Shown here one piece after another: positions 5,018 through 27,300 of a stretch of 64,000 nucleotides of DNA. The first letter of the stretch is position 1, and every line of letters begins with the position of its first letter. Below the pieces are notes generated by a model. It ran no database searches, was not told where the DNA came from, and worked only from the letters and a program-made list of their open reading frames with translations. The stretch is from NCBI RefSeq assembly GCF_014203275.1, contig NZ_JACHIP010000004.1:682001-746000 (forward strand), given 5' to 3'. The position numbers and the translations under genes are program-made. The DNA is from Granulicella aggregans (lineage in GTDB: Bacteria; Acidobacteriota; Terriglobia; Terriglobales; Acidobacteriaceae).

Positions 5018-5068
5018 GGTTATGGGTTCTCGACTACAGAGCTAGCTTATGCAACGGCAACAACAAGT

Positions 5069-5108
5069 GCAACGGCAGCAACGGACCCTCCGCCTACGGC
5101 GAAGGATG
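5069..5108. repeat. dispersed intergenic repeat, copy C
   Basis: Third copy of the GCAACGGCAGCA-n-C-n-GACCCTCCG core, here with CGCC-TAC-GGCG as the hairpin arm. A partial extra GCAACGGCAACAACA unit precedes it (5051-5065). It lies between the TPR gene start and the anti-sigma stop. Confidence 0.5.
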
Positions 5109-5137
5109 GCAAGAGTTGTTGAGGGGATTTTGGAGGG

Positions 5138-8710: not shown

Positions 8711-10324
8711 ATGCGCGCTAGCTCACAAGTAAAGTTCCTGGTTGTGTCGATGTTTATAAGCCTAGGGGCAATGGCGCACGCGCAGGCCTTCCGGGTGCAG
8801 TGTCCCACATCTACATCGCTCCATCCGTCGTTAGGTACAGGTTCGCCTATGGGTGCGGGAGCAGCGTACACAGGACCCAGTACCATAACTGACTCCGCCG
8901 CCAACGGTACTGGATTGACATACACGTCCAACGGCGGCGTGATCCGTTGCCAACAGGTATCGGGCGGCGATGGGTACGCAACCATGGGCGACGGGAACCA
9001 GATTTATATGTTCGCGTTTGGACCGCTGTCGGGGTTGAGCGACATTTCGAACGGTCTTCCGGGTACACAACTCGCGAACGTGTACAACACCATGCCCCCA
9101 GTTCCACTTCAAGTGGGCGATCCCGCGACGAATGGCCCAGCGCTGCTGGGTTATAACGGAGCGGTCGGTCTGGCGCCTGATATGGATTACGGCGGAGTGA
9201 TAGATGGTCACGTCGACCCACGGCCGATCATGGACGTTGGGGTTATGAACGGCAACCAGCCGGCGCCCTTGATGGCTATCGACGAAGACGACGAGTTCTT
9301 TCTTACGCTGAGCAATGTGGGCATGTTGATGCGCCCCGACCTCTTCGAGCAACATACGATCCACTTCCACGGTTATCCAAACGCTTCTTCTTTTTACGAT
9401 GGTGTGCCGGACGCTTCAGTTGCTGTCGATATTGGCGGCAGCATGACTTACTACTACCTGGCACCGGATGCGGGAACCTACTTTTGGCACTGCCACATCA
9501 CTCCTCCCGAGCACCTGCAGATGGGAATGGTAGGTCAGCTTTATGTACGACCGAGACAGAATAGAGTGCCGACGGACGGAACTCACCTTTACACCTCGCT
9601 TATGAAACAGCAGACCGACTTGCGAACGGCATCTAGCTGCCAGAGCGATATTCTCTGCACGACGCCTCAGCCGCCAACCGATAATGGGGCCACTCATACA
9701 GCGAACAAGAGTAATTCGCCCACCCTTTATGCCTACAACGACGGCGATGGCTCGACGGCCTATGACGTGGAGTATCCGCTCCAGATTCATGGGTTCGATC
9801 CCAACTTCCATTTTGTGGGCATGACCTTCAATCCGGAAGGATTTGCGGACATGAAGGACAAGTATTTCCTGCTGAACGGACGGAGTTATCCGGATACGGC
9901 TGCTGCGGGAACGATGCAGACTCCTTCGTCGGACGGCGTAATGCACGACTCGCAGCCGCTACCGTCGATTATCAATATTCCCGCTGGCGGGAGAGCCCTG
10001 CTGCGGATCTCGGACCTCGATGTAAGCGAGTTTCAGACTCTGGCGTCACTGGGTATTCCGATGAAAGTGATCGGACAGAATGCGCGGCTGCTGCGGGACG
10101 AGGCCGGGAACAACATGTACTACGGGACAAACTCGATCACGCTAGGCGGCGGGGAGTCTATCGACGTGATTCTGGATGCAACTGGCTACACGGCACGCCA
10201 GAAATTTTTTCTTTATTCACCCAATCTAGACCACCTCTCGAACGACGCCGAGAACTTCGGCGGGCTGATGACGGAAGTGAATGTCTGCAATGCAGTCGAT
10301 CCGATTACGAAGGCCTGTAGCTAG
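8711..10324 (+). CDS. secreted multicopper-oxidase-like protein with type 1 copper site
   Basis: 537 residues. I chose the ATG at 8711 because AGAGAGG lies just upstream and it starts a clean signal peptide ending AMAHAQ (about residue 24). The first cupredoxin region carries HTIHFHG (215-221), matching the HPxHxHG motif, and FWHCHITPPEHLQMGM (about 259-273), matching the HCHxxxHxxxxM motif with two extra residues between Cys261 and His268. These give a full type 1 site (His215, Cys261, His268, Met273) plus four trinuclear-centre histidines. The C-terminal cupredoxin (about 370-530) lacks copper ligands. The other half of the trinuclear ligands is missing here but present in the next gene, 15 bp downstream. 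Substrate unknown; metal oxidation or electron transfer is possible. Confidence 0.8.
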   Translation: MRASSQVKFLVVSMFISLGAMAHAQAFRVQCPTSTSLHPSLGTGSPMGAGAAYTGPSTITDSAANGTGLTYTSNGGVIRCQQVSGGDGYATMGDGNQIYMFAFGPLSGLSDISNGLPGTQLANVYNTMPPVPLQVGDPATNGPALLGYNGAVGLAPDMDYGGVIDGHVDPRPIMDVGVMNGNQPAPLMAIDEDDEFFLTLSNVGMLMRPDLFEQHTIHFHGYPNASSFYDGVPDASVAVDIGGSMTYYYLAPDAGTYFWHCHITPPEHLQMGMVGQLYVRPRQNRVPTDGTHLYTSLMKQQTDLRTASSCQSDILCTTPQPPTDNGATHTANKSNSPTLYAYNDGDGSTAYDVEYPLQIHGFDPNFHFVGMTFNPEGFADMKDKYFLLNGRSYPDTAAAGTMQTPSSDGVMHDSQPLPSIINIPAGGRALLRISDLDVSEFQTLASLGIPMKVIGQNARLLRDEAGNNMYYGTNSITLGGGESIDVILDATGYTARQKFFLYSPNLDHLSNDAENFGGLMTEVNVCNAVDPITKACS

Positions 10325-10339
10325 GTCAGGAGAGCAGCA

Positions 10340-11953
10340 ATGAGCATTTTAAGTCTTGGAAAATGCGGATTGTTTCGGTACTTGTTTGCGGTGGGAGTTG
10401 CGGTAGCGACCCTGATCTCCACGGCGATGGCCTGGGGAGCTGCGCCCGGAATTATGGGAGCATCGGGGAACCCTACGTTCGCCCTTACTGCGCAGGACAA
10501 CTACATAAGCCAGCCGGATGGGCAGGCGATCTACTCCTGGGGTTATGGCTGCAGTTCGACTGCAGGACTGACCTATGCGCCAGCAGCCATAGCCGGCGCC
10601 ACCTGCCCAACGATGCAGATTCCGGGGCCGACGTTGATTGTGAATGAGGGCGACGTCGTGACGGTGACGTTGACGAACAATCTGCCGCTGGCTGCCGGAA
10701 ATACATCCATTTTATTCCCGGGATTTACCGTGACCACCGCGAGCGGAGTGCAGGGGCTGCTTACCCAGGAGGCAACTCCAGGATCCAGCGTCACCTATAC
10801 GTTTACGGCGACTTCTCCTGGAACGCGAGCTTACTACAGCGGTACACAGGGCGATCTTCAGGTGGAGATGGGGATGTACGGAGCAGTGATCGTGCTGCCA
10901 AAGACGGTCCCGAGCTCCTGCACGAGCGGCGTGATGCAGAGCAATATGTCGGCAAGAAGTAAATTCGGCGAGTCTGAATTTCGCTTGGCTCCGGCCGCCT
11001 ATGACAATGCTTCAACCTGCTATGACCGCGAGTATCTGTTTCAGTTTTCGGAGATAGATCCGACGATCCATAAGCAGGCCGAAGCAGCGGTTGCGGTCGC
11101 GGTTGCTTCAGGATGCACCGCGGGAGCTTGCCCGACGATGAACGTCAAGACGGAGCCATACCACCCAACCTACTTCATGGTGAATGGGCGGTCGATGCCG
11201 GACGACATGGATCCGAACTACGCATCGGAGTATCCACACCAGCCTTACAACGGTAATCCGCACATGCACCCCGGCGAATTGACGCTGGTCCGAGTGGTGG
11301 GACAGGGAAGGTGGCAGCATCCGTTCCATGAACACGGAAACCATGTGCGTGTGCTAGCTCGGGACGGCAACCTGATTACGAGTTCAAGCGACCCTACAAA
11401 GCTTGCGGGACCGCTGTTGTTTACGACTACTACTACGCCCGGCCTTGCGATGGACGGCATCTTCTACTGGACGGGTAAGGGCCTGAACTGGGACGTGTAC
11501 GGGCATAACAATAAGGACACCACAAATCCAATGGCGAATCTGGCTTGCAATGCGGACGTTAACGGATACAACACGATGGGCACAGCTTATACCCAGGCGA
11601 ACTACTACGAGTGGTGCGCCGACCATAACAAACCGCTCGAGAAGTTTCCTTTTGGCGATGTAGAAGCGGGCGGTCCAGTTACGTTGCCGGATCCGAACTA
11701 CCTGACGAACGGCACCTGGTATGGCGGCAGTGCATATCTTGGACCGGATGCAACGTCTCGTTCCGCAGGTCCAAAAGGGACTACACCGCCTTCCGGTACA
11801 GTCGGCAATCCCCCTAGTAGTGAGGCTGGGTTTGCCTTTATGTGGCACTCGCATAACGAGCGCGAGATCACGACGAATAACGTATTCCCGGGCGGAATGA
11901 TGATGATGATGCTCGTCGACTCGCGGGAATTTGTTATTGACGAATCGAATTAA
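10340..11953 (+). CDS. secreted multicopper-oxidase-like protein lacking a type 1 site
   Basis: 537 residues. The start ATG has AGGAG about 8 bases upstream, and residues 1-30 form a signal peptide. The N-terminal cupredoxin has the family motif IPGPTLIVNEGDVVTVTL, but its copper loop is degenerate (RAYYSGTQGDLQVEMGM, no HxH). The C-terminal part has HPFHEHGNH (327-335) and MWHSHNERE with H503 and H505, followed by an unusual run of five methionines (GGMMMMMLV). HEHG plus WHSH correspond to the first two HxH pairs of a multicopper oxidase, but there is no HCH and thus no type 1 copper. It complements the preceding gene product. Operon position and near-equal length support a two-subunit enzyme; this is inference. 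Confidence 0.78.
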   Translation: MSILSLGKCGLFRYLFAVGVAVATLISTAMAWGAAPGIMGASGNPTFALTAQDNYISQPDGQAIYSWGYGCSSTAGLTYAPAAIAGATCPTMQIPGPTLIVNEGDVVTVTLTNNLPLAAGNTSILFPGFTVTTASGVQGLLTQEATPGSSVTYTFTATSPGTRAYYSGTQGDLQVEMGMYGAVIVLPKTVPSSCTSGVMQSNMSARSKFGESEFRLAPAAYDNASTCYDREYLFQFSEIDPTIHKQAEAAVAVAVASGCTAGACPTMNVKTEPYHPTYFMVNGRSMPDDMDPNYASEYPHQPYNGNPHMHPGELTLVRVVGQGRWQHPFHEHGNHVRVLARDGNLITSSSDPTKLAGPLLFTTTTTPGLAMDGIFYWTGKGLNWDVYGHNNKDTTNPMANLACNADVNGYNTMGTAYTQANYYEWCADHNKPLEKFPFGDVEAGGPVTLPDPNYLTNGTWYGGSAYLGPDATSRSAGPKGTTPPSGTVGNPPSSEAGFAFMWHSHNEREITTNNVFPGGMMMMMLVDSREFVIDESN

Positions 11954-11982: not shown

Positions 11983-14900
11983 ATGCGATTGAGCCACCAT
12001 AAATTCGCGTTGAGTGCGGTGTGCTGTCTTCTAGGAGCGGCGACAGCCCTGGGTCAGTCTGTGAGCCTTACCGCGGCGGCGAGCAGCGCCGTGCTGCCGG
12101 ATGGGCAGACGGTCCCGATGTGGGGACTCTCATGCGCACCGACTCTGCCTAGTTTGCCCCCGTTGCCCATCTTAACCGCGAGCTGCGCGGCGGCAAATCC
12201 GAACGCCGCAGGCGCCTGGTCTCCGGTGATCATCACGGTCGCGGCGACTTTGCTTACCGGCCCCGCATCGTTGACGATCAACTTGACGAACAACCTGCCA
12301 GTGCCGACTTCCCTGACGATTGTGGGTCAGGTGGGTGGTGGCCTGGGTGACACGACCAAGGAGATGGCGGTCCCGAGTCCGACCCACGCGCAACAGGGAA
12401 CGACGTGGCCGATCGCCAATGGCGGATCGACCTATCAACCTCCGCCGCAGGGGACGCGCGTTCAATCGTTCGCCCAAGAGCTACCGGCGGGCAGCGGGCC
12501 CACGGCGTTAACGTGGCCGAATCTGCGCCCTGGAACGTATTTGATCGAGTCGGGCACGCACCCCTCTATTCAAGGGCCGATGGGACTGTACGGGATCCTT
12601 GTCGTGACGCAACCGGCGGTTGCGGCAGTGCCGGGAATGGCGTATCCGAACGTCAACTACAACGCGGATGTGCCGTTGATCATGAGCGAGATCGATCCGG
12701 TTCAAAATTCGGCGGTTGCAAAGGCAGTAGCCACTCCCGGATTCAGCGAGACTATGGTGTGGTCGGGACAACCTGGCGGGTGCGGCTACCCGGGATCGAC
12801 GACCTATGGGCAGTGCTATCCGCCGGCGGTGAATTACTCGCCGCTGTATTACATGGTGAACGGAGTATCGCTCGATCGCAGCAACCTGGGCTCCTCGGTC
12901 TTCTCCACCACGCCTGCAATCGGAGTAACTGGCCAGGTGCTGGTACGCATGGTGAACGCGGGCCTGCGGATGCACGTTCCGTCGATCGTGGGATCTACAG
13001 CAGGGTCCGCTGTACCTGTAGCCCCGGTCCTGGGGACTGTACTGCCCGCGGCCTCCGGCTTCTCGCTGATTGCGGAGGACGGTAATGTTCTTCCGGGAAC
13101 GCCTCGGGTGCAGAGCGAAGTGTTTATGGCCGCAGGTAAGACGTACGACGTGATGATTAATGTTCCGTCGATTCCTCTACCTACTCTTACTAACCCGGTA
13201 CCAACTTTACCGACCGCGCTGCCAATATTTGATCGCCAGTTGAGCTTGTCGGCTAATAACCAGCGAGATGGTGGCATGCAGGCCTACATCAGCGTAAACG
13301 GGGCGGCCGCGCCCAGCAATGCGCAGACCGGGGCTAAGGCGAACGCGGACAGCTACATCGTGATTGCCAATACTCCGCTGGCTGTAAGCGACCCGGCAAA
13401 GGGCGTGATTGCGAATGACGTTGGGGTATATGGGGTTCAGATGTCGCCCACCGCGCCCGCACCCGCCCACGGAACGGTGAGCCTGAGCCCGGATGGAACG
13501 TTCACTTACACGCCAGATACTAGTTGGACGAGCACGACGACCGACTCATTTGTGTACCAGGCAAACGGTAAGGCTAGTCTTACGGCGATCGTCTCGCTGG
13601 GGGCTTGCACGGGATCTTGTCTTGGCGGCGCGCCTACTCCGGGCAATGCAAGCTATACGAGCAATGTTGCATCGCTCTACCACGTCGGACCTCCAGGAGT
13701 GCTGATGTATGCGACTGACCCGCAGGGTCATCCTATGACAGCGTCCACGGCGATGGCGGTAGGTGGGGGATCGGTAATTTTGAATCCGGACGGTTCGTTC
13801 ACTGCGAGCCCGACGACTGCTGCCAGCGGAACGCCTGCTACTGTCACTTTTCAGTATAAAGTCGCGAACTCACAAGGGACATCGAGCACCAATCTCGGCA
13901 CGGCAACGGTGACGTTCCTGCCGGGCAGCGGGCTGAAAGTGAATGTGCTGGATGCGCCAGTGGGGACTGTAGGTACGATCGGCAAAGCGATCACGGACTA
14001 CCGATGGATTATTGAAGAGGACCGGACATTCCAGGTAGATCCGAGCAAGGAGACAATCAGCACTACAAACCCCGTTCAAAGCCTGGGCACAAACTTCCAT
14101 ACCAGCTACATGCCGGTGATCGCAACGGGCTGCGTGGGTACACTGGCATGCGAGTCTGGGCAGACTATGGGGGGCGCGCCCGTAGTCTGCGATATAGGAG
14201 ACGGCGTTTGCCGAACCACCGCCTCACAGCAGACGCCGGTGGATCCGTCGCAGGTGCATCTCGATCCAAATCGGCACTACTACATTTCAATTCTTCCGGG
14301 GGACGCGGGAAATTCATTCACCTATGGCGGGGGCGCGCCGCAGCCTGTCAATCCTACGGATCCCAACAGCCCGTCGCGGCAGTTCGATATCACGAAGGAC
14401 TGCGGTGCCTATACCGGGCCGTCGGGAAACTGGGAGCCTGGAAAGGGCCAGTGCGGTCACGGTATGGGCGGAGCGCAGATTCCGCCGGCTGCGATCGCAG
14501 CGAAGTCGGTGAATGTGCTCCTGCAGGAGACGCCTTTCCAGCCGGCGAAGATCTCCGTGTTCGTGTATGAGGATGACTTCCCCTTGAACGGTGAAAATGA
14601 CGCCGGCGGTGGTGTGGATATTCTGGCACCGAATGAGCCCGGTCTTGGCGGATTCGAGGTTCGTCTGTGGGACGACGCAGGCGGCACCGGCGGCGCCACG
14701 GGCCAACTGACGTACGACATGTTCAACATGCCATTGTCTAACAGTCTTGCGGGAACGATCGACCCCGTTACGACTCTCAACGCCTGTCCTATTACCGCTG
14801 CGCCGGATGGCATTGTCGGCAGAATTGTGACTTGTCCGAAGTTCGAATCGGACGGCAAGACGCTTTCACCATTGGCCGGACAGGCGATTATTGCGAACAT

Positions 14901-17900
14901 GATGCCAGGGCGGTACGGCGTGCAGGCGAACCCTGGAGCCGACCGGACGGGCAAGGGCGAGGAGTGGCTGCAGACGAACACTCTGGACGGACAGAAGGCG
15001 CATGACTCCTTTATTAAGCAAGGCGGTCCCGCGTACTTCCAGGAGTTCGGGCCGGCTGGCTTCCATGTTTCGATCGGCTTCGCGCAACCGGCGTTGATCA
15101 ATGCCAGGCTTGCGGGCGTTTGCAATGGGTCGGACATCAACGTCACGGGAACGAACTGCCACAACAAAGTGACCGGCAAAATCACCATGATGCGGCAGAG
15201 CCATCCGCCCGATCAGCGGCTGTACAGCAGCGGTACGAATGACGCTTTGAGTTTCACACAGTGCTACGTCAGCCTGGGAGACCCGGACGGCGAAGACTTC
15301 GCGTTTGCCAAGTGTGATGCAAACGGCAACTTCGAGCTCGACAATATACCGGATGGGGACTGGAGAATCACGGCGTTTGATCAATGGAATGACCAGATCG
15401 TGGACGGTCTCTCGACGCCAGTTCGCTTGACAAACGGCACGGGCTATAACTTCACCAACCTCGCAGTGCAGCAGTGGCAGACCAACGTTTCGACGACCAC
15501 GTTCTTCGATGCGAACGGCGATGGCATCCGGCAGCCGGGCGAACAAGGTCTGGCGCTGGTGCCTACCAATGTCAGGTTCCGCGATGGAAGCTTTTCGAAC
15601 TTCAACAACACAGACCTGAACGGATACGCCGCGTTCAACGAAGAGTTTCCGCTCTTCAACTGGTACACGATCGAGGCCGACACAACGCGTTACAAGTCGA
15701 CGGGCGTGCACGTGGTGTACGACGGTGGCGGCCCCGCAGCCACGTCGGGAATAGCGGCAAACCTGGCTGGGACAGCGGAGTCCAGCAGTCTTCCCACCAA
15801 CCTGCGCTTCCCCGGTTCGGTCTATTGCAATACCGCGGACTGCACGGACATCCCGAAAGGGATCAAGGCAGGGCCAGGTGGAAGTACGACTGGAATCGTA
15901 TCTACCGGTCGCATCGACCCTCCGTGGGTGACGAGCGAAGGCTGGCAGGGCTTTATCGGTCAGTACGAGTTCCTGGAGTTCGGCAAAACGCCTTTTGTTA
16001 CGGGAGAGAACGGAGGCATTCACGGCGAAGTGGTTTACGCTTCGACTCGTCCGTTCGATGATCCGTCGCTGTTGACGCACCTTAGCTGGACGCCAAATGT
16101 TCCCGGCGTTACTGTGAACCTCTACCAGGAGTCGACTGCCGCCGATGGCACGACCAGCCTGAAGATGGTCGACACAACCAAGACGAGCAGTTGGGATGAC
16201 TGGGCACAGGGCTTCCGCTCCGACGGCGTTCCCAACATGAACTGTCCTGGGCAGGCGAGCTCAAGCGGAGGCGATCCGTTCTACTTTACGTTGCAGAACA
16301 CGCCATTCTTCCTGGACCAGTACAACGCGACCTACAACAACGGCACGCAACACACGCTGCCGAATAACTCGCAGTTCAAATGCTATGACGGACTGCACAA
16401 CTTCAACCAGGTGCAGCCGGCACCGTATGACGGCGCATATAAGTTCCCAAGCGTGACTTCGCGGAATCCTTCAACCGGGGCGGAGGCAGGCACGAACTGC
16501 ACCGTCTGCAAGGCCAATCCCACAGGAGATGGCACGCAGATGCTTCCTGCTGGAAAGTATGTGGTGGAAGTGGTTGTGCCTCCGGGATACGAACTGGTCA
16601 AGGAAGAGGATAAGAACATCCTGATCGGCGACAACTATATCGCGCCTGTGACGCAGGAGTTTGGCGGGCTGGGAAGCATCTTCATCCTGCCGGACCAAGC
16701 TGAGGTCACGTCGCTCTACAACGCGAATAACGCACAGAACTCCACGAACACGCTAGGAAGGACGACTTATCCGACATCGGACGTGGCGGGTTCCACGGAT
16801 ACGGCGTGGCCTTGCGTGGGTGCGTCCCGCGTCGTTCCGGACTTCATCAGTCTCTTCCCAGGGTCGGCCGAAGTTGCGCCGTTCGCGGGAGCGACGCGCA
16901 ATCTTTGCGATCGCAAGGAAGTTACTCTGGGCGACCAGACCTCCGCGCTGGCGAAGTTCTGGATCTTCAGCTCGACGCACGTAGCGGCGCACTTTACCGG
17001 CTTTATCTTGGACGACCTTTCGTCAGAGTTCGATCCGTTCTCGCCGCAGTTCGGAGAGAAGTTCGCGGTGCCGAATTTGCCGGTCTCGATCAAGGACTTT
17101 GCCGGCAACGAAGTGGAACGTGTGTATGCCGACCAATGGGGGACCTATAACGGGCTGAACTACTCGACGTGGGAGGTAAATCCGCCGAACCCGACGGGAT
17201 ATGCGCCGACGATGATGGTCGCCTGCATGAACGATCCGGGAACGGGTGCGACACCGGACCAATACTTCAATCCTTCGTACAGCCAGTTCTGCTACGAGAT
17301 TCCTTACATGCCCGGGCAGACGCAGTATATGGATACACCAGTTGTGCCGACCGCAGCGTTCGCCGAAGGGTATAACCCGCCGGATTGCAACTATCCCAGC
17401 GGTACGCCAGCGATTGGGTCGGTGATTGGGAGCGATGCGGCCGGAGCGGTTGGAGGATCGAGCGGCAAGGGACCGTGGGTAAGCGGCACGGGAACGGGCC
17501 ACACGCTGACGATCACCGCGCTCGGCGACCGGCCGGTACCCAACCCTGCTTATACGGGGCCGCAGGCAACACAAGCTCCGTTCAACCAGAAGTTCGTAAC
17601 GCGGCATTATGGTTTTGGCACGCAATGCACGGCTATCGGTGCGGGATGCACTGCGGTGTCGAGCGTGACGATCGGCGGGATTAGCGCACCTATCGGTACC
17701 TGGAGCGATACGTCGATCGCTGTGACGGTGCCTGCAAATGTGCCTTCGTGTGCGGCTAACGGGACCACACCGCTACAGCGAAATGGAACCGGGAACATGA
17801 AGTATGCGGCGCAGTGCGGCGAGGTTGTGATCACCTCTGGGACTGGACAGAAGTCGATCGATAGCATCACGGTGACTGTCGGCGGCAAGCCACCGTCAGT

Positions 17901-20900
17901 TGTGTCTGGCGAGAATTCAACAAACAGTGCGATTCAGACGGCTATCGACGGAGCCACTCCGGGCGATCTGATCCTGGTCAGCCCCGGTGTCTATCAGGAG
18001 ATGGTGTTGATGTGGAAGCCGGTCCGGCTACAGGGTTCAGGAGCCGGCGGCACGATCATCAACGCCAACACTCATCCTTCGGGCAAGCTAGATCCGTGGC
18101 GGCGGCAGGTCAACTGCCTCTTCGGGCTGGCGCTGAATGGAAGCCTGCTGAGCGCCGGAAATGCATATGATCCGACCGGCACCTACACATGTTCTCCGTT
18201 GATGCGGGGCGCGGTCGACCCGCTGCCGCTCGAAGGCATCGTGGGCTGGGATACAACACTGAACGGCAACCTCGCACAACTGCTCCAGGAGCCTTCGCTG
18301 ATGGGCGCTTATGAAGGCGCTGGAATCACGGTTCTGGCGAAGGGCGAGAACATGAGTATCGGCCTTGCCAGCACTGGAGCGGCGGGGACGGAGGGAGACT
18401 TCCCGACTGGCTCTCGTGTGCTTACCAACAGCGTTGCGGATTGCAATAAATTCCAGAGCAACTTCTGGTGCAATCCGTCGCGGATCGATGGCTTCTCGAT
18501 CACGAACAGTTCACAGGGCGGCGGCGGTATCTTCGCCCACGCCTGGAACCACAACCTGGAGGTCTCCAATAATCGAATCTACGGCAATGCCGGTACACTC
18601 TCTGGCGGAATCAATATCGGCCAGGGCGAGACACCGGACCCGACTTTCAACGCACTCAACGTCGAGATGCCGTTCAATTTCGAGACGAACGTGCTAGTCC
18701 ATAACAACTCCGTAACAGCGAATACTTCTTACGGCGACGAGTTATTCTCATCCTCGCCGTCGGCGGCGGGCGGTGTCACGTTCTGTACCGGCGCGGACTA
18801 CTACCACTTCAACTACAACTGGGTTTGCGGCAACCTGAGCACTGGAGATGGCGGTGGGCTGGTTCACGAGGGCTTCAGCTATAACGGAGACATCTCGCAC
18901 AACTGGATCCTATTCAATCAGAGCAATAACATTACCCTGCCGACGAATGGCGGCGGCATCGCGGTTCTTGGCGCTGCCCCGGATGGAACGACCCCGGCCG
19001 GGACAGAGTGCGGCAACACAGCGGCCGATGCCGACTGCGCGCCCGGTCTGAGCGATGGCACGGGACCGAACCTGGTCATCGACAGCAACGTGATCATGGG
19101 TAATACGGCGGAGAGCGGCAGCGGCGGCGGTATCCGGTTGCAGACGGTGAACGGGACAGATGTGACCCGCACACCTCTTCTGCCAGGACTTTGGAACTCT
19201 GTGACGGTGACGAACAACATCGTCTCGAACAACGTCGCAGGTTGGGACGGTGGCGGCATCTCGTTACAGGATGCGCTGAACGTGAAGATCATCAACAACA
19301 CGGTTGCGTCAAACGATACGACGGCCTCGGCTGGCGTTCTGTTCAATACGATCGGAGCGCCGGGTGCAAGCACGCCTCCTCCGGGATGCGACCCAAGCAC
19401 GAATCCCACATGCGCGGGCAAGCAAGTCCTGACGTCGACGCCTCAGGCCGCTGGATTGGTGACGATGCAGAATACCGCAAACCTTGCCACTCAGATGCCG
19501 AAGAACGTCATATGCCCCGCAGGGAATTTCAGTGGCGGGATACTTAAGGCGCTCAACGGGACCTGCACGACGTTCTCCTATCCACTGCTGGCGAATAATC
19601 TCTTCTGGCAGAACCGCATCTTCAACATCCAAGTAGGCGGATTGGGGACAGGCAATCTGAATCAGCAAAACTTGGTGACGCTGCTGCCGCAGCTGAGCCA
19701 GACGTCGACCGGGCAATGCGCGGCAGGACCCGGCTATTGGGATATCGGCGTCCGTGGAGACACGGGGCCGCACGACCACTCCTCTACGGTGACTCTCAAT
19801 CCAACGTATTCGATCCTGTCGGACACGACCGGCTACGGGATATCAAACTCCTCGACGAATCCAAACGTGGCGAGCCAGTATTGCAATGGATCGCGTGTGC
19901 CACCCGAGTTAGGCGGCACGGCCAATCCATTCGGGTTCCAGGTGCCTCCGGGAATTTCGGATGCGACTGTACCCAACCCGGTCTTCAACCTGACGCCGGC
20001 GGCTACGGTTGATGAAGGCAACAATTGGATCAACCTGACTTATGGTCCACTGAGCCTGGGGAACCCAACCCTTGCGTCTGCCACACTTCCGACGGCAAGC
20101 GGGACGGCGAATGGCAATTACAGCCTAACGAGTACATCGACGTCGGCTATCGGAGTCATCAAGAACACGGGCCTATCTGCGATCAATTACGGAGAGGCGC
20201 CCTCGGTCGATATTCTGGGCACACCTCGTAAGACGAATGGTGCCGTGGATATCGGTGCGGTGGAATATGTTCCGCCGGCTTACGCCATCGCGAGCATCAC
20301 GCCCACTTCGCTCGCCTTCGGCAATGTCGTTACGGGAACAACGAGTGCCTCACAGACGCTCACTCTTTCGAACACCGGTGGAGCAAGTCTGACGGGAATT
20401 GCGCTTGTCTTCTCGTCGCCCACTTACTCGCGGCCAGCGGGGACGGCGGGAGGTACCTGCACGGCGACATTAGCCGCCGGCACGACGTGTACGATCAACG
20501 TGGTATTTACGCCGACCACGGCGGTAGCGGTCAACGCAACGCTGGCTGTAAATGGCAGCGTGACGGTGACTGGTTCGCCGGTCGCACTGAGCGGTACAGG
20601 CGTGGCTCCACTGCCGGTCGTAAGCATCACGCCTACGGCGCTTGCCTTCGGAAATGTCGTCAATGGCTCCACCAGTCCGTCGAAGACACTGACGTTGTCG
20701 AACACGGGCAATGCCACTTTCACGGGCATCGCGCTAACCTTCTCGTCGCCACGCTACTCGCGGCCGGCGGGAACGGCGGGCGGGACTTGCGGAACGACGC
20801 TTGCTGCGGCCGCCACCTGCACGATCAATGTGGTGTTCGCGCCGACAGCGAGCGGTGCTGTGAACGCAACGCTGGGAGTTACGGGGACGAACGCTGCCGT

Positions 20901-21306
20901 AACTGGTTCGCCGGTGGGCCTGAGTGGAACAGGAGTTCTTCCGGGAACCGCTTCGATCACTCCTAACCCGCTGACGATCACGCTAGCGGCAGGCGGTAAC
21001 CCGCGCGGCGGTACGGGAACCGTCACGCTGACGAATACTTCAACTAACGCCGCGCCGGTAACGGTCACTTCGGTGGCGGTGAGTTCGGGCGCCGGCAGTA
21101 ACATCCTGACGTGGTTCTTCAATGCCATCGCTGGGCAGGATACCTGCACAGGCACCGTGCTTGCGCCTGGAGCCACCTGCACGGTTGGCGTCAGGTTTAC
21201 GAATGTGACGGCGGCAAGCGGTGCGAATCGAGCGGGAACGATTGTCTTCACCGACAACGCAACTGGCAATTCGCAGACTGGAGTGCTTACCGGGCATGCG
21301 AATTGA
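11983..21306 (+). CDS. giant secreted mosaic protein with degenerate cupredoxin, SdrB-like, beta-helix and HYDIN-like regions
   Basis: 3107 residues, ATG preceded by AGGAGAG, signal peptide ending ALGQ (about 25). Order: cupredoxin-like domains to about 440 with no HxH copper motifs (LRMHVPS replaces HPxHxHG); two cadherin/VCBS-like domains (about 450-650); a long region with SdrB-like blocks, such as KISVFVYEDDFPLNGEND (about 852) and TTFFDANGDGIRQPGEQG (about 1171); an IPT/TIG-like stretch (about 1870); a right-handed beta-helix (about 1985-2750) starting QTAIDGATPGDLILVSPGVY; and two close plus one diverged choice-of-anchor-D/HYDIN-like repeats (2770-3107). It lacks an obvious membrane anchor or sorting signal. 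Overall design recalls very large multicopper-type surface proteins discussed in metal oxidation and reduction (MofA, OmpB), but copper ligands are lost. It is probably a surface scaffold for the two upstream proteins. Confidence 0.8.
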   Translation: MRLSHHKFALSAVCCLLGAATALGQSVSLTAAASSAVLPDGQTVPMWGLSCAPTLPSLPPLPILTASCAAANPNAAGAWSPVIITVAATLLTGPASLTINLTNNLPVPTSLTIVGQVGGGLGDTTKEMAVPSPTHAQQGTTWPIANGGSTYQPPPQGTRVQSFAQELPAGSGPTALTWPNLRPGTYLIESGTHPSIQGPMGLYGILVVTQPAVAAVPGMAYPNVNYNADVPLIMSEIDPVQNSAVAKAVATPGFSETMVWSGQPGGCGYPGSTTYGQCYPPAVNYSPLYYMVNGVSLDRSNLGSSVFSTTPAIGVTGQVLVRMVNAGLRMHVPSIVGSTAGSAVPVAPVLGTVLPAASGFSLIAEDGNVLPGTPRVQSEVFMAAGKTYDVMINVPSIPLPTLTNPVPTLPTALPIFDRQLSLSANNQRDGGMQAYISVNGAAAPSNAQTGAKANADSYIVIANTPLAVSDPAKGVIANDVGVYGVQMSPTAPAPAHGTVSLSPDGTFTYTPDTSWTSTTTDSFVYQANGKASLTAIVSLGACTGSCLGGAPTPGNASYTSNVASLYHVGPPGVLMYATDPQGHPMTASTAMAVGGGSVILNPDGSFTASPTTAASGTPATVTFQYKVANSQGTSSTNLGTATVTFLPGSGLKVNVLDAPVGTVGTIGKAITDYRWIIEEDRTFQVDPSKETISTTNPVQSLGTNFHTSYMPVIATGCVGTLACESGQTMGGAPVVCDIGDGVCRTTASQQTPVDPSQVHLDPNRHYYISILPGDAGNSFTYGGGAPQPVNPTDPNSPSRQFDITKDCGAYTGPSGNWEPGKGQCGHGMGGAQIPPAAIAAKSVNVLLQETPFQPAKISVFVYEDDFPLNGENDAGGGVDILAPNEPGLGGFEVRLWDDAGGTGGATGQLTYDMFNMPLSNSLAGTIDPVTTLNACPITAAPDGIVGRIVTCPKFESDGKTLSPLAGQAIIANMMPGRYGVQANPGADRTGKGEEWLQTNTLDGQKAHDSFIKQGGPAYFQEFGPAGFHVSIGFAQPALINARLAGVCNGSDINVTGTNCHNKVTGKITMMRQSHPPDQRLYSSGTNDALSFTQCYVSLGDPDGEDFAFAKCDANGNFELDNIPDGDWRITAFDQWNDQIVDGLSTPVRLTNGTGYNFTNLAVQQWQTNVSTTTFFDANGDGIRQPGEQGLALVPTNVRFRDGSFSNFNNTDLNGYAAFNEEFPLFNWYTIEADTTRYKSTGVHVVYDGGGPAATSGIAANLAGTAESSSLPTNLRFPGSVYCNTADCTDIPKGIKAGPGGSTTGIVSTGRIDPPWVTSEGWQGFIGQYEFLEFGKTPFVTGENGGIHGEVVYASTRPFDDPSLLTHLSWTPNVPGVTVNLYQESTAADGTTSLKMVDTTKTSSWDDWAQGFRSDGVPNMNCPGQASSSGGDPFYFTLQNTPFFLDQYNATYNNGTQHTLPNNSQFKCYDGLHNFNQVQPAPYDGAYKFPSVTSRNPSTGAEAGTNCTVCKANPTGDGTQMLPAGKYVVEVVVPPGYELVKEEDKNILIGDNYIAPVTQEFGGLGSIFILPDQAEVTSLYNANNAQNSTNTLGRTTYPTSDVAGSTDTAWPCVGASRVVPDFISLFPGSAEVAPFAGATRNLCDRKEVTLGDQTSALAKFWIFSSTHVAAHFTGFILDDLSSEFDPFSPQFGEKFAVPNLPVSIKDFAGNEVERVYADQWGTYNGLNYSTWEVNPPNPTGYAPTMMVACMNDPGTGATPDQYFNPSYSQFCYEIPYMPGQTQYMDTPVVPTAAFAEGYNPPDCNYPSGTPAIGSVIGSDAAGAVGGSSGKGPWVSGTGTGHTLTITALGDRPVPNPAYTGPQATQAPFNQKFVTRHYGFGTQCTAIGAGCTAVSSVTIGGISAPIGTWSDTSIAVTVPANVPSCAANGTTPLQRNGTGNMKYAAQCGEVVITSGTGQKSIDSITVTVGGKPPSVVSGENSTNSAIQTAIDGATPGDLILVSPGVYQEMVLMWKPVRLQGSGAGGTIINANTHPSGKLDPWRRQVNCLFGLALNGSLLSAGNAYDPTGTYTCSPLMRGAVDPLPLEGIVGWDTTLNGNLAQLLQEPSLMGAYEGAGITVLAKGENMSIGLASTGAAGTEGDFPTGSRVLTNSVADCNKFQSNFWCNPSRIDGFSITNSSQGGGGIFAHAWNHNLEVSNNRIYGNAGTLSGGINIGQGETPDPTFNALNVEMPFNFETNVLVHNNSVTANTSYGDELFSSSPSAAGGVTFCTGADYYHFNYNWVCGNLSTGDGGGLVHEGFSYNGDISHNWILFNQSNNITLPTNGGGIAVLGAAPDGTTPAGTECGNTAADADCAPGLSDGTGPNLVIDSNVIMGNTAESGSGGGIRLQTVNGTDVTRTPLLPGLWNSVTVTNNIVSNNVAGWDGGGISLQDALNVKIINNTVASNDTTASAGVLFNTIGAPGASTPPPGCDPSTNPTCAGKQVLTSTPQAAGLVTMQNTANLATQMPKNVICPAGNFSGGILKALNGTCTTFSYPLLANNLFWQNRIFNIQVGGLGTGNLNQQNLVTLLPQLSQTSTGQCAAGPGYWDIGVRGDTGPHDHSSTVTLNPTYSILSDTTGYGISNSSTNPNVASQYCNGSRVPPELGGTANPFGFQVPPGISDATVPNPVFNLTPAATVDEGNNWINLTYGPLSLGNPTLASATLPTASGTANGNYSLTSTSTSAIGVIKNTGLSAINYGEAPSVDILGTPRKTNGAVDIGAVEYVPPAYAIASITPTSLAFGNVVTGTTSASQTLTLSNTGGASLTGIALVFSSPTYSRPAGTAGGTCTATLAAGTTCTINVVFTPTTAVAVNATLAVNGSVTVTGSPVALSGTGVAPLPVVSITPTALAFGNVVNGSTSPSKTLTLSNTGNATFTGIALTFSSPRYSRPAGTAGGTCGTTLAAAATCTINVVFAPTASGAVNATLGVTGTNAAVTGSPVGLSGTGVLPGTASITPNPLTITLAAGGNPRGGTGTVTLTNTSTNAAPVTVTSVAVSSGAGSNILTWFFNAIAGQDTCTGTVLAPGATCTVGVRFTNVTAASGANRAGTIVFTDNATGNSQTGVLTGHAN

Positions 21307-21372: not shown

Positions 21373-21392
21373 ATTTGAAGGGAATGGGATTC

Positions 21393-21995
21393 ATGGATCG
21401 TCAATCGCTTGCGAGACGCAACGTTTCCAAGATCAGATTTGGTAATAGGCAGGCATCAATGAACAGTAAATCCAAGCCGGTTTTTTCCGGTATTTTTGCA
21501 TCATTATTCGCGATTATTCTCCCTGCGATTCCTTACGCGGCGGCACAAGGCACCGGGACGTCAGTGAAACCCGTGGGGCAGGTAGCGTCAAACAACTCGT
21601 CCTCTGTCAGTTCGCCGACACCCGTGCGGCGTGCCGTCTCTATGTCGCCCCGCGCAATCGAGCATTATCAGCTCATATGGGGAGTAGAAAACCTGGACGT
21701 CAAGGCGGTGGAGTCCGGGCAGATGATTCGATTCAGCTACACGGTGTTGGATCCCGTGAAGGCGGCTATCTTGAACGACAAGAAGGTGAATCCATCGCTC
21801 ATCGACGAACAGGCGCGAGTGAGGCTCGAGATTCCGACAATGGAAAAAGTAGGTCAATTGCGGCAAAGCAGTACCCCCGAGGTCGGTAAGTCCTACTGGA
21901 TGGTTTTTTCAAATAAGGGTGGGATTGTTAAGCCTGGTGATCGTGTAAGTGTGATTATAGGAAGGTTCAAAGCGGATGGACTTTACGTTCGGTGA
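21393..21995 (+). CDS. small secreted protein of unknown function
   Basis: 200 residues from ATG 21393, which has GAAGGGA nine bases upstream; an alternative ATG at 21459 would give a more ordinary signal peptide (MNSKSKPVFSG, hydrophobic core, cleavage near YAAAQ) but has a weak ribosome site. After a Ser/Thr-rich linker, the mature domain (about 110 residues, from RAIEHYQLIWGVENLDV to FKADGLYVR) looks like a compact beta-rich fold. I do not recognise a family. It follows the terminator hairpin of the giant gene and precedes a LolA-like gene in the same direction. It probably belongs to the envelope or metal-handling unit by location only. Confidence 0.65.
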   Translation: MDRQSLARRNVSKIRFGNRQASMNSKSKPVFSGIFASLFAIILPAIPYAAAQGTGTSVKPVGQVASNNSSSVSSPTPVRRAVSMSPRAIEHYQLIWGVENLDVKAVESGQMIRFSYTVLDPVKAAILNDKKVNPSLIDEQARVRLEIPTMEKVGQLRQSSTPEVGKSYWMVFSNKGGIVKPGDRVSVIIGRFKADGLYVR

Positions 21996-22059
21996 CTGGT
22001 GGAATGGGCCTGCTGGCTGGCTCGAGTAGAAATCTTGGTACGTTTTGGAGGAGATTGGA

Positions 22060-22974
22060 ATGTTTTCCAGATTGATGATGAGTTGTTTATTGGGATGTTC
22101 GGTAGCTTCACTTGCGAGGGCGGCGGAGTTGCCGCAACCTACCGCAAAGCTTACGGCGGCTGAGATCGCCGATAAAAATGCGACTGCCCGCGGTGGGTTG
22201 ACCAAGTGGCGCGCGGTGCAAACCTTGAGTATCACCGGGAAGATGGAGGCAGGAGGAAATAGTCGTCCTACATTGCCCTTACCTGGAATTAAGGGAAAAG
22301 ATTCCCTGCCCCCGCCCAGGCCGGTTGAGCAAGTGCGACTGCCATTCGTCATGGAACTGAAAAGACCCAAAAGGATGAGGGTTGAGGTGACGTTCGCGGG
22401 ACAGAACGCGATCCAGATCTACGATGGCAAGGATGGCTGGAAGCTGCGACCATTTCTTAACCGGCGCGAGGTAGAGCCTTACACGGAAGCTGAAATCAAG
22501 ATGGCTGCTACTCAGTCGGAGCTCGACGGTCCGCTTATCGACTACGCCGCCAAAGGAACCAGCATCGAGTTGGCTAGTCTGGATAAAGTGGAAGGCCACG
22601 ACAGTTATAAGTTGAAGTTGACCATAAAAGATGGAACGACCAGATACCTCTGGATCGATGCAACAACGTTTCTCGATCTGAAGATGGAAGGTGATCCTGC
22701 GCGTCTCGACGGCAGGCCACGGCCGGTTGAGATCTACTTTCGCGACTTCCGGGCGGTAAGTGGATTGGAGATTCCCTTCGTGGTCGAGACGAAGGTGCTC
22801 AATCCGACCGTACAAGGAAGGGGAGGCGCGCCGGTGGCGAGTGAACAGATGACGCTGGAAAAGGTGGAGGTGAATCCAGCATTGAACGACGCTTTGTTCA
22901 CTAAGGCCGATCTGGTTGCATTAGCAGGGAGCCAGACGTTTGCGACAAGAGTCTCCAAGCCAGTGATCCATTAG
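22060..22974 (+). CDS. LolA-like outer-membrane lipoprotein-sorting-type periplasmic protein
   Basis: 304 residues. ATG 22060 is preceded by GGAGGAG at a six-base spacing and begins a signal peptide ending LARAAE (about 22). The body contains features of the LolA/LolB-like fold: ENQKMR-like opening EIADKNATARGGLTKWRAVQTL, then KRPKRMRVEVTF, QIYDGKDGWKLRPF, HDSYKLKLTIKDGTTRYLWID and PVEIYFRDFRAVSGLEIPF. Such proteins bind acyl chains or act as periplasmic accessory factors; the specific ligand is unknown. It lies 13 bp upstream of the RND adaptor gene, so it is almost certainly co-transcribed with the pump. It could deliver or sense something linked to that pump, which is inference. Confidence 0.75.
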   Translation: MFSRLMMSCLLGCSVASLARAAELPQPTAKLTAAEIADKNATARGGLTKWRAVQTLSITGKMEAGGNSRPTLPLPGIKGKDSLPPPRPVEQVRLPFVMELKRPKRMRVEVTFAGQNAIQIYDGKDGWKLRPFLNRREVEPYTEAEIKMAATQSELDGPLIDYAAKGTSIELASLDKVEGHDSYKLKLTIKDGTTRYLWIDATTFLDLKMEGDPARLDGRPRPVEIYFRDFRAVSGLEIPFVVETKVLNPTVQGRGGAPVASEQMTLEKVEVNPALNDALFTKADLVALAGSQTFATRVSKPVIH

Positions 22975-22987
22975 AGGAGAGACGTAG

Positions 22988-24307
22988 ATGGCGAAGAGGG
23001 CGGTCTATCTCGTTGCGCTTCTGATGGTGCTTGCCGCCGGGGTGGCGATCGGCCACTTTGCGCTGAAGCCGGCAGGGGCAGAGACTGCGCGCCTGCCCTT
23101 GTACTATGAAGACCCCATGCATCCTTCCTATCGGTCTCGCGGGCCCGGAAAGGCCCCGGACTGCGGTATGGATCTGGTGGCGGTCTATGCGGAGGATCTG
23201 CAGGGCAGGCGTTCGACGGTGGCCGGCCCAGGATCGATGGCCTTGCATATCGATGCCGGCACGCAAAGACAATACGGCATACAGGTCGAACAGGTTGAGC
23301 CGGTCAGCAAAGCTTCAAGCGGAGGAACGGTTCGCTTCTTCGGGAGCGTAGCGGCGGATGAGTCACGAATCTATCGGGTGAATCTGGGAACCGAAGGATA
23401 CGTGAAGGAGACCCATGGTGACTCGGTTGGAGAGAGGGTCGCCAAGGATCAGCGCCTGGCTACGGTATACGCTCCGGAGTTCCTTGCGGTAGTCGGGGGC
23501 TATCTCTCTGCGAACGAGCGCACGATGCAACCAACCGTGCCGATGAAGGACAACTCCGCTCCTACCGCTAATGCCGCGAGCGCGCAGGCAAGAGCCGATC
23601 GATTGAGAAATCTCGGGATGAGCGACTCACAGATCCAGGAGGTCAGCACCTCGCGGAAGATTCCCGAAGACGTGTACGTGGTCTCGCCGACCGATGGATA
23701 TGTATTGGCACGCAATATCTCACCCGGCTTGCGGTTTGAGCGCCACACTGATCTTTACAGCATTGCCGACCTGAGCCGAGTGTGGATCCTGGCGCAGGTG
23801 TCTGGGGATGAGGCGGCAACATTACGGCCTGGTTCTCTGGCCGAGATTGTTCTTCCGGATGGCGGAGGCAGACTGAAAGCACGAGTGAGCGATGCGCTGC
23901 CTGAGGTCGATGCGACGAGTCACACGGTTACGGTGCGGCTAGAGGCAGACAATCCGAGGGCGCGGTTGCGGCCGAACATGTTTGTTACGGTAGAGGCGGC
24001 GGGAGGAGCGCGCGGCACCGAACTTGCTGTGCCGGCGGACGCCGTTGTCGATTCCGGCCTATCGAAGCGCGTTTTCGTCGAGACAGCGGAAGGATACTTT
24101 GAGCCGCGCGAGGTAGAGACGGGCTGGCATCGTGGAGACAGGGTGCAGATTACGAAGGGATTGACTGGCGGAGAGACGGTTGCGGCCGCGGGAACATTTT
24201 TGATCGATTCAGAGAGTAAGCTCCATGGGCTTTCCGGTACGGCAAAAGCTCCTCCTCCAGGTGCGCAGGCGGCGGCGCCTGAGTTACAAAGCGGGACGTC
24301 GCGATGA
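22988..24307 (+). CDS. cusB: RND efflux periplasmic adaptor (CusB/CzcB type)
   Basis: 439-residue membrane-fusion protein linking an inner-membrane RND pump to the outer membrane. An N-terminal hydrophobic anchor (1-25) is followed by a heavy-metal-binding-like segment, YYEDPMHPSYRS and KAPDCGMDL (about 38-65). This matches the CPMHP...CPxCGM domain of copper adaptors but with Asp and Ala replacing two cysteines. Then come the barrel-sandwich and coiled-coil hairpin (about 115-240, with VSPTDGYVLARNISPG) and the beta-barrel and membrane-proximal parts (ILAQVSGDEAATLRPG; ELAVPADAVVDSG). The ATG of cusA overlaps its stop by ATGA. Export of Cu(I) or Ag(I) is the likely role, by family and by the copper proteins upstream. 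Confidence 0.9.
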   Translation: MAKRAVYLVALLMVLAAGVAIGHFALKPAGAETARLPLYYEDPMHPSYRSRGPGKAPDCGMDLVAVYAEDLQGRRSTVAGPGSMALHIDAGTQRQYGIQVEQVEPVSKASSGGTVRFFGSVAADESRIYRVNLGTEGYVKETHGDSVGERVAKDQRLATVYAPEFLAVVGGYLSANERTMQPTVPMKDNSAPTANAASAQARADRLRNLGMSDSQIQEVSTSRKIPEDVYVVSPTDGYVLARNISPGLRFERHTDLYSIADLSRVWILAQVSGDEAATLRPGSLAEIVLPDGGGRLKARVSDALPEVDATSHTVTVRLEADNPRARLRPNMFVTVEAAGGARGTELAVPADAVVDSGLSKRVFVETAEGYFEPREVETGWHRGDRVQITKGLTGGETVAAAGTFLIDSESKLHGLSGTAKAPPPGAQAAAPELQSGTSR

Positions 24308-27300
24308 AGGGCATCATCGGGCTCATTCACTGGGTCATCGAATATGCTGTGCGTCACAAGGCCCAGGTCTTCGCGGTTGTGTTTTGCGGTTGCGTAGCTG
24401 GCTACTGGTGCATGTCGACTCTGAAGCTGGACGCGGTTCCGGACTTAGGGGATACGCAGGTCATTATTTACTCGCGGTGGGACCGGAGCCCTGAGCTTAT
24501 CGAGAGTCAGGTGACTTATCCGATTGTTACTGCGCTGCTGGGCGCTCCGCATGTGAAGACAGTTCGCGGAGTCTCCGATTTTGGATATTCGTTCGTTTAT
24601 GTGATCTTCGAAGACAATACGGACCTCTACTGGGCGCGGTCGCGCACGATGGAGTACCTATCGGGGGTTCAGTCACAGCTTCCAGACGGGGTGAAGACGC
24701 AGATAGGGCCTGACGCGACGAGTCTTGGATGGATCTTTCAATATGCCCTGGTGGACAAGAGCGGGAAGCTTTCGACCTCGCAGCTAAGCGGGTATCAGGA
24801 CTGGTATCTTCGCTACTACCTGAAGGCGGTTCCGGGCGTGGCGGACGTGGCGGCTGCAGGAGAACTGCGCCGACAATACCAGGTGAACGTAGACCCGAAC
24901 CGTCTACGCAACTTCGGGATCAGCATCAGTCAGGTCGTCGATGCCGTTCGCGAAGGCAATGTTGAGACGTCTGGAAGGCTGCTTGAATTTGGCGGCACGG
25001 AGTATATGGTCAGGGGCCGCGGTTACGCGAAGACGTTGGATGATTTCCGTAACATCGCGGTGCCAAGGCCGGTTGGGAGTGGCCGGCCGGATAGTGGTTC
25101 AGTAAGACTTCGGGACCTGGGCGAGGTTACGACAGGCCCAGACCTGCGGCGAGGCGTGACCGATCTGGACGGACAGGGAGATGTAGTGTCGGGCATCGTG
25201 ATGATGCGCAGTGGCGAGAATGCTCTGGAGGTGATCGATCGGGTTAAGGCCAAGTTGAAGGAGATCGAACCCTCGCTGCCCCAGGGCGTGGAGGTGGTCC
25301 CGATCTACGATCGGTCGACGCTAATTCATCGAACGATAGGAAGCGTACGGCTCACGATCTTTGAAGTAATCATCACGGTGGCGCTGGTGATTCTGATTTT
25401 TCTCTGGCACTTTCCCAGTGCGATCATTCCTCTGGTGACGATGCCGGCGGCGATTCTTATCTCTTTCATTCCGCTTCGCCTGCTGGGGATCAGCGCGAAT
25501 GTGATGTCGTTGGCGGGCGTCGCGATCGCGTTCGGCGAGCTGGTCGATGCTTCGATTCTTATTGTGGAGCAGAGCTACAAGCGACTTGAACAGTGGGAGG
25601 CAACCGGATGTAGAGGACGGCAGAGTGACATCGTTCTTGGAGCGGTGAAGGAGGTCGCGGGGCCGATCGTTTTCTGTCTCTTGCTAATCGCGGTTTCGGT
25701 GCTTCCGGTCTTCGCGCTTGAGGGGCAGGAAGGACGGATGTTCAGGCCGCTGGCCTATACCAAGTCTCTGGCGATGATTGTGGCGGCGGTGATGGCGATT
25801 ACGCTCGATCCGGCATTACGATTGCTGCTGACCAAGGCACGGAGATTCGAGTTCGGTCCGCAGTGGGTTCGCAGATTCATGAACGCATTGACTAACGGAA
25901 GGATAAGGCGGGAGGAGCAGCATCCCATCAGTGGACCGATGGTGCGCGTCTACGAGCCGGTGGTGCGATGGACACTCCGCTACAAGTGGGTTGTGATTGG
26001 CTGCGCGGCAGCGATGATCGCGATTACGGTCCCGGTGTTTCTCGCGCTTGGGTCAGAGTTTATGCCGGCGATGAACGAGGGCACGATTCTGTATATGCCC
26101 ACGACGATGCCTGGGATTTCGGTGAACGAGGCGCAGAAGTTGCTGATTGCGACAGACTCGATTCTGAAGCAATTTCCGGAGGTGGATCGAGTACTGGGCA
26201 AAGCGGGACGGGCGGATACACCGACCGATCCAGCACCTCTCTCCATGCTGGAGACCCTAATTACGTTGAAGCCCCAATCGGACTGGCGCAAGGTCGACAC
26301 GTGGTACTCCTCTTGGGCACCCGAGTGGACTCGCCCGATGCTGCGGCCAATCACGCCCGATACGATCTCGCCTGAGCGGCTGGTTCGGGAGATGAATGCA
26401 TCCCTGCAAGCGCCGGGCGTGAGCAATGCGTGGACCACGCCGATCAAAGGGCGCATCGATATGCTGACGAGCGGCATTCGCACGCCCGTAGGCCTGAAGA
26501 TCTCGGGAAGAGACGTGGAGACGATAGAGGCGATAGGGAACCAGGTGCAGGCAATTCTGCCGTCGGTTCGCGGCACAGCGAACGTGTTTTCGGAGCACAC
26601 AAACTCCGGATATTTCATCGATATCGAGTGGCGACGCGACCAGCTCGCACGCTATGGCATAAGCATGGCGCAGGCCCAACGCGTCGTCGAAAACGGCATT
26701 GGGGGCGATAACGTTTCTACAGTTTCGCTGGGACCGGAACGCTATGCGGTGAACGTCCGTTATATGCCGGATTTCAGGAGTAGCATCGATGCGCTGAAAC
26801 ATGTTCTGGTTTCGACGCCGGAGAAAGGCCAGGTGGAGGTCGGCGAACTGGCGACGCTTCAAATGACCAGCGGTCCATCGATGATCCGCGACGAAGATGG
26901 TTTACTGACGGGCTATGTCTATGTCGATCTAGCGGGGCGCGACCCAGGCAGCTACGTCGCCGAAGCGAACAAGTTGCTGCATCAGAAGATGTCGCTGCCG
27001 CCGGGGTTCACGGTCACGTGGAGTGGGCAATACCAGGACATGCAGCGGGCCAATGAGCGGTTGAAGATTGCCATTCCACTGACGCTGGCGGCAGTCGTCT
27101 TTTTGATCTATTTGAGCACCGGCGCGGTAAGTAAGACGCTGATCGTGCTGCTGGCTGTTCCATTTTCCGCGGTCGGGTCAATCTGGCTGCTCTATCTGCT
27201 TCACTTCAATCTAAGTGTGGCCGTATGGGTCGGTCTTGCAGGTCTGTTGAGTATCGATGCGGAGACGGGAATTTTTATGTTGCTCTATCTCGATCTCTCC

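Follow-up and report, generated by a model that had tools for sequence, protein, structure and literature searches.

Multicopper oxidases, as described in the part of PMC13151041 used here, carry all their copper ligands in one gene product and are either homotrimers (two-domain enzymes) or single chains (three- and six-domain enzymes). In the two-domain trimers, neighboring chains build the trinuclear cluster jointly, one contributing its domain 1 and the following one its domain 2 (PMC13151041). The bacterial six-domain oxidases, as far as the portion of PMC3600357 used here describes them, have a single type 1 site in domain 2 and a single cluster between domains 2 and 3. Here, we analyzed a 64,000-nucleotide stretch of the Granulicella aggregans genome (contig NZ_JACHIP010000004.1, positions 682,001 to 746,000; hereafter the window), in which the full set of type 1 and trinuclear ligands is absent from either product of two adjacent genes, P1 and P2, and is reached only by the pair. 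A third gene, P3, begins with a homologous two-cupredoxin unit (P3N). The three genes and the copper motifs are as follows, in window coordinates and lengths in amino acids (aa):

8711..10324, + strand: P1, 537 aa, two cupredoxin domains, the first bearing the type 1 copper site and four cluster histidines, the second ligand-less
9353..9373, + strand: P1 motif HTIHFHG, residues 215-221, with type 1 ligand H215 and cluster ligands H218 and H220
9488..9529, + strand: P1 motif HCHITPPEHLQMGM, residues 260-273, with cluster ligands H260 and H262 and type 1 ligands C261, H268 and M273
10340..11953, + strand: P2, 537 aa, two cupredoxin domains, the first ligand-less, the second bearing the four cluster histidines that complement those of P1
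11318..11338, + strand: P2 motif HPFHEHG, residues 327-333, with cluster ligands H330 and H332, and H327 at the type 1 His position
11843..11854, + strand: P2 motif WHSH, residues 502-505, with cluster ligands H503 and H505, and Ser replacing the type 1 Cys
11983..21306, + strand: P3, 3107 aa, with a ligand-less two-cupredoxin unit at residues ~24-440 (P3N), the remainder being a giant module

An earlier note on this DNA, made from the letters alone, had described P1 and P2 as adjacent open reading frames (ORFs) of similar length, 15 bp apart, both with signal peptides, and had placed the type 1 site and half of the trinuclear ligands in P1 and the other half, lacking a Cys motif, in P2. All of this was borne out. 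The coordinates and the equal lengths were confirmed, the spacer is 15 bases, and both proteins start with a hydrophobic leader, as judged by eye. An AGAGAGG/AGGAG-like site precedes the start codon of both genes, and a scan for sigma-70 promoters and terminators gave scores near those of shuffles. Both P1 and P2 matched the Pfam families Cu-oxidase_3 (PF07732) and Cu-oxidase_2 (PF07731) above the curated cut-offs, and their NCBIfam matches all fell far under the cut-offs.

The divided ligands were strictly conserved. H215, H218, H220, H260, C261, H262, H268 and M273 of P1 were invariant in 81/81 sequences, and H327, H330, H332, H503 and H505 of P2 in 80/80 (L082 left out); an HCH motif was absent from the P2 sequence. 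M273 is presumably the axial type 1 ligand, as assigned from known oxidase motifs. In a more divergent alignment (28 loci, two of which duplicate the places of two others, plus the window; covering some but not all of the loci L104-L145), the ligands were retained in 29/29 sequences of both P1 and P2, with identities to the window as low as 38% for P1 and 35% for P2. M271 of P1, to which no ligand role is assigned, was present in 28/29 of this set. Given the Pfam matches above cut-off and the invariant ligands, the complementary motifs are not due to chance. The P2 motif HPFHEHG also resembles HPFHIHG in domain 3 of CueO, a match that appeared at weak E-values only. Outside the four copper motifs, H429 of P2 (window 11624-11626) was likewise invariant (80/80 and 29/29), and together with H327 it might form a further metal or proton site. 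In the metagenome-bin locus L082, P2 was found in two ORFs of 239 and 293 aa (3960-5589), either a true lesion or an assembly error.

The two-gene reading overlooked P3N, the nearest profile relative of P2. Profile comparison gave 99.4% for P2-P3N, 96.9% for P1-P2 and 56.7% for P1-P3N, and the segments around the copper sites could still be aligned, although the ligands are gone in 4/6 domains. This applied to the copper-site segments of domain 1 (P1 GTYFWHCHITPPEHLQMGMVG, P2 PGTRAYYSGTQGDLQVEMGMYG and P3 PGTYLIESGTHPSIQGPMGLYG) as well as those of domain 2 (P2 FMWHSHNEREITTNNVFPGGMMMM versus P1 FFLYSPNLDHLSNDAENFGGLMT). P1, P2 and P3N look as if a single two-domain oxidase subunit, of a type C-like kind, had diverged into three copies that each keep a different part of the copper site. 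The heteromeric oxidase proposed in the earlier note stands insofar as the ligands are divided and the genes always occur together, but it leaves out the third homologous unit, which is also part of the set.

The P1 and P2 genes are inseparable, occurring together wherever the contig permits a check. When genome contigs were searched with P1, 212 relatives were confirmed, and the best 80 of these (from Burkholderiales, Acidobacteria and metagenome bins) were kept. P2 followed P1 in all 80, the broken P2 of L082 included, and P3N followed P2 in 78; the other two contigs stop 281 and 271 bases past P2. The P1-P2 gap, taking the longest ORF each time, was exactly 10 bp in 47/80 loci, which suggests translational coupling. 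A further 42 loci (L104-L145), consisting of fetched profile matches and four stretches from genomes G066, G068 and G069, were scanned with all three profiles. A strong P2 match (at least 232 bits) was present in 37 of them, with P1 directly upstream in 37/37 and P3N downstream in 36, the 37th (L113) stopping at a contig edge; P3N of L140 and L142 was read from the longer stretches L164 and L174. These 37 include three repeats of other loci, the window itself and the place of L021, and others may overlap the first 80-locus set. The neighbor check covered the matches other than two strong places (G420 C22 and C181) and one weak match (G528). Homologues consistently occurring without the partner, which the earlier note had named as refuting its idea, were thus not found where the contig permits a check. 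The fused genes it had also suggested looking for did not turn up: no P1-P2 or P2-P3 fusion was seen among the loci examined. Five weak P2-profile matches (L126-L130) were rejected as members, having no P1 or P3 partner and resembling ordinary oxidases.

The phyletic distribution was patchy, and we infer that horizontal transfer lies behind it. Since only the best few candidates were scored per genome, the following profile counts are lower bounds. The P2 profile (A2) matched 6/250 genomes in the order of G061 (Paraburkholderia adhaesiva, locus L021) at E 1e-20, 16/369 in its class at E 1e-12 (six of these weak, 48-58 bits) and 13/297 Acidobacteriota genomes at E 1e-20. With the P1 profile, 14/297 Acidobacteriota genomes were matched, namely the same 13 and G816, whose match sits at a contig end. 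In the 36 other genomes of the window genus, any match to P1 was confined to the generic oxidase domain. Some genomes hold several trios, with six P1-profile matches in G068 (L065) and five each in G066 (L100) and G069 (L074), some of which are pieces of one gene.

The giant module of P3 matched Ig/cadherin-like, SdrD-like, weak beta-helix and choice-of-anchor D domains. A giant protein with homology to residues ~650-2760 of P3 was present in 17 of the 18 divergent regions examined (L158-L175), the contig of L175 stopping inside P3. In 14/18 of these regions, the giant was encoded upstream of P1 and apart from both the P1 and the P3 genes (including L159, counted as separate as its giant lies in another frame than P1), and it was fused to P3, as in the window, in L167 and L168. 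In L163, it formed an in-frame fusion with the P1 N-terminus, and a second P1 fusion was found in L113, which is not among the 18. That the fusion partner changes between P3 and P1 argues that the giant, P1 and P3 are parts of one complex. In L158, L163, L164, L171 and L172, P3N was free of the giant module and 341-433 aa long; in the compact cluster of L158, the three subunits measure 419, 451 and 393 aa.

From the complementary invariant ligands, the homology of the three units and the constant gene order, all of which were observed, we infer an assembly to which we give a probability of about 0.68: a secreted P1:P2:P3 heterotrimer with a ring of six cupredoxin domains and one trinuclear cluster, attached to the giant protein. 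P1, P2 and P3N would assemble outside the cytoplasm in the order P1-P3N-P2. By the rule for two-domain trimers given above (PMC13151041), in which the cluster forms where domain 1 of a chain meets domain 2 of its neighbor, only the interface of P2 domain 2 with P1 domain 1 would have a full ligand set, and the sole trinuclear cluster would be placed there. The P1 domain 2/P3 domain 1 and P3 domain 2/P2 domain 1 interfaces would be structural and silent, their copper sites having decayed. An outside reductant would give electrons singly to the type 1 copper of P1, from which they would pass through the HCH motif to the shared cluster, where O2 would be reduced to water, and the giant module would act as scaffold or anchor. 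The narrower claim, that P1 and P2 share one trinuclear site, we hold to be highly probable.

Comparison with solved structures placed the proteins near the type C two-domain oxidases. The best matches of P1 were 3g5w from Nitrosomonas europaea (E 1.5e-15) and 2zwn from a metagenome (E 4.3e-14), and those of P2 were 3gdc, 3g5w and 2zwn; 3g5w and 2zwn were classed as type C from their sequences, in which domain 1 carries the type 1 motif. A model of P2 alone had a mean predicted local distance difference test score (pLDDT) of 65.5 and a predicted template modeling score (pTM) of 0.71, with a good first domain. Untrimmed, it spanned both domains of two-domain enzymes (3gdc, Z 20.9; 7rab, 20.4; 2zwn, 20.4; 3g5w, 20.4), with a root mean square deviation of 3.3 over 256 residues against 3g5w. 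The P2 model thus supports a two-domain architecture and is usable for the overall fold, not for the copper site.

Several points weigh against the heterotrimer. The joint assembly of P1, P2 and P3 is a prediction from the sequences, and the position of the type C type 1 site was matched by sequence only. The direct profile similarity of P1 and P3N is, taken alone, only the 56.7% given above, and P3N matched solved structures weakly (best E 0.0035), which is supportive at most. In the P2 model, pLDDT was below 50 at residues 252-276, 293-304, 327-336, 347-360 and 399-506, covering both ligand motifs, and Cu nitrite reductases, which have no trinuclear cluster, scored nearly as well (Z 20.3 and below). 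A P1-P2 read-through model (pLDDT 51.7, pTM 0.41), with both ligand-bearing domains mostly below 50, was unusable and supports no claim.

Like the type C enzymes, the trio has two cupredoxin domains per unit and the type 1 copper in domain 1, the N-terminal cupredoxin of the two (H215, C261, H268 and M273 of P1). HxxHxHG and HCH motifs in domain 1 and HxxHxHG and HxH motifs in domain 2 are also shared, and 3g5w and 2zwn are the top sequence match of P1 and among the top structural matches of P2. The type C enzymes, however, are homotrimers from one gene with all ligands in each chain, whereas here the ligands are divided between P1 and P2 and the third copy has none. P1 domain 2 has no HxH pairs and P2 domain 1 has no motifs, so that no single chain holds both halves of the cluster, and the trio, which would function in the manner of a type C enzyme, is therefore not a type C member. 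The Bacillus Mnx complex (MnxE3F3G) also involves a multicopper oxidase needing several proteins from contiguous genes, but there, in the part of PMC5622069 used here, MnxG is the sole multicopper oxidase, accompanied by the ~12-kDa proteins MnxE and MnxF, which have no known homologues. The mof operon of Leptothrix and Rubrivivax likewise has a large extracellular-type oxidase beside a cytochrome c gene, mofC (in A210, also a metallochaperone); the four motifs lie in the single MofA chain, as stated in the portion of PMC8218464 used here. MofA and MnxG are set apart from the trio by their description, not by sequence. In the literature searched, which covered few subscription journals, we recognized no description of a split P1-P2-P3 system. 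As the described two-domain enzymes are homotrimers and the six-domain enzymes single chains, the split three-gene form would be a new variant.

If the ring model is right, the trio shares six cupredoxin domains and one cluster with the MnxG/MofA-like oxidases and ceruloplasmin, which are single chains and not the products of three separate genes. Evenly balanced, in our judgment, is a broader proposal: that the trio is an obligate heterotrimeric multicopper oxidase representing a living step between three-cluster two-domain homotrimers and one-cluster six-domain rings, in which complementary decay of duplicates would have made each copy indispensable without fusion, and that the ring sits on a giant scaffold outside the cell, attached now to one subunit and now to another. 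The trio could instead have arisen by fission of a single-chain six-domain oxidase of the MnxG/MofA kind, and the working enzyme would then be much the same; this alternative concerns origin only, and its odds are not shared with those of the other readings. The bacterial six-domain oxidases, too, have one type 1 site and one cluster. Their type 1 site lies in domain 2 and their cluster between domains 2 and 3 (PMC3600357, for the part used here), however, whereas here P1 domain 1, which has the type 1 site in the type C layout, pairs with P2 domain 2. With, in addition, no fused form among the loci examined, fission appears unlikely.

A different assembly would have P1 and P2 alone form the enzyme, as a dimer or an alternating ring, with P3N merely docking the giant protein. 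Every ligand does sit in P1 and P2, and in loci of the window type it is P3N that bears the giant module. By profile, however, P3N stands closest to P2; it comes after P2 wherever the contig permits and exists without the giant module in the five loci named above, and the known two-domain oxidases are trimers (PMC13151041, within the part cited). We therefore consider an enzyme of P1 and P2 alone distinctly unlikely. Less probable still is that there is no shared cluster: P1, perhaps as a homotrimer, would carry electrons as a blue copper protein, P2 would bind metal on its own, and the two would act in sequence. The type 1 site is complete in P1 alone, the invariant H327 and H429 of P2 could hold another metal, and the P1-P2 complex model was unusable. 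Four histidines in P1 and exactly the complementary four in P2, all invariant in the sequences aligned, nevertheless speak for the shared site, as half-clusters would make no sense apart. Finally, the chance that a single oxidase gene was cut by a sequencing error or stop codon is negligible: in the window P1 and P2 share a frame with a single TAG between them, but the frames differ in 65/79 loci, so that the split is not a sequencing artefact, both proteins have leaders, and the two-gene split recurs in Burkholderiales and in Acidobacteriota.

Downstream of the trio, the window holds the following genes:

21375..21995, + strand: P4, a small exported-looking protein with no Pfam match, homologues of which follow P3 in many clusters
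22045..22974, + strand: a LolA-like protein (weak, under the Pfam cut-off); three Burkholderiales records have a homologue on the downstream side of the trio
22988..27711, + strand: a metal-type resistance-nodulation-division (RND) efflux pair, HlyD_D23 with a heavy-metal-binding domain, and an AcrB family protein
28843-30960, - strand: a secretin gene near the operon, with homologous secretins close to the trio in L101 and L114

Homologues of P4 were found in L101, L102 and L103, in 9/18 divergent regions, and in L114 and L115. Homologues of the RND pair adjoin the trio in L165; the pair is probably a neighbor and not part of the enzyme. In L103, type II secretion genes lie ~17 kb downstream of P2, and these, together with the secretins, give only hints of how the complex is exported. 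Also downstream in L103 are two LolA-like proteins (under or near the cut-off) and a cytochrome c protein, relatives of which occur in L160, L161, L162 and L173. A Pfam scan of selected ORFs from the divergent clusters showed S8 subtilases near the trio in L158, L159, L160, L162, L169, L171, L173 and L174, possibly as processing proteases of the giant protein. Some of the subtilase genes come with a MopE-like metal-binding motif, which scored above cut-off in L158 and L159; SCO1 was present in L162, and L166 has a multihaem cytochrome. Upstream of the operon, on the opposite strand (5138-6561, - strand), a zf-HC2 zinc-finger protein lies beside an ORF that, by eye, resembles an extracytoplasmic sigma factor.

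Among the neighbors, the metal-pump, copper-chaperone and cytochrome c genes lean weakly toward a metal ion as the substrate, the hints favoring copper and electron transfer. Together with the giant partner, the metal and electron-transfer neighbors point, in both Acidobacteriota and Burkholderiales, to a redox system outside the cell. If true, the model would supply a role for three proteins that are labelled hypothetical in L103 (Paraburkholderia), the sole annotated record examined. A conserved heteromeric form would, furthermore, be a new architecture for O2-reducing copper enzymes, and living bacteria would offer a test of one stage supposed in how ceruloplasmin and other six-domain oxidases arose.

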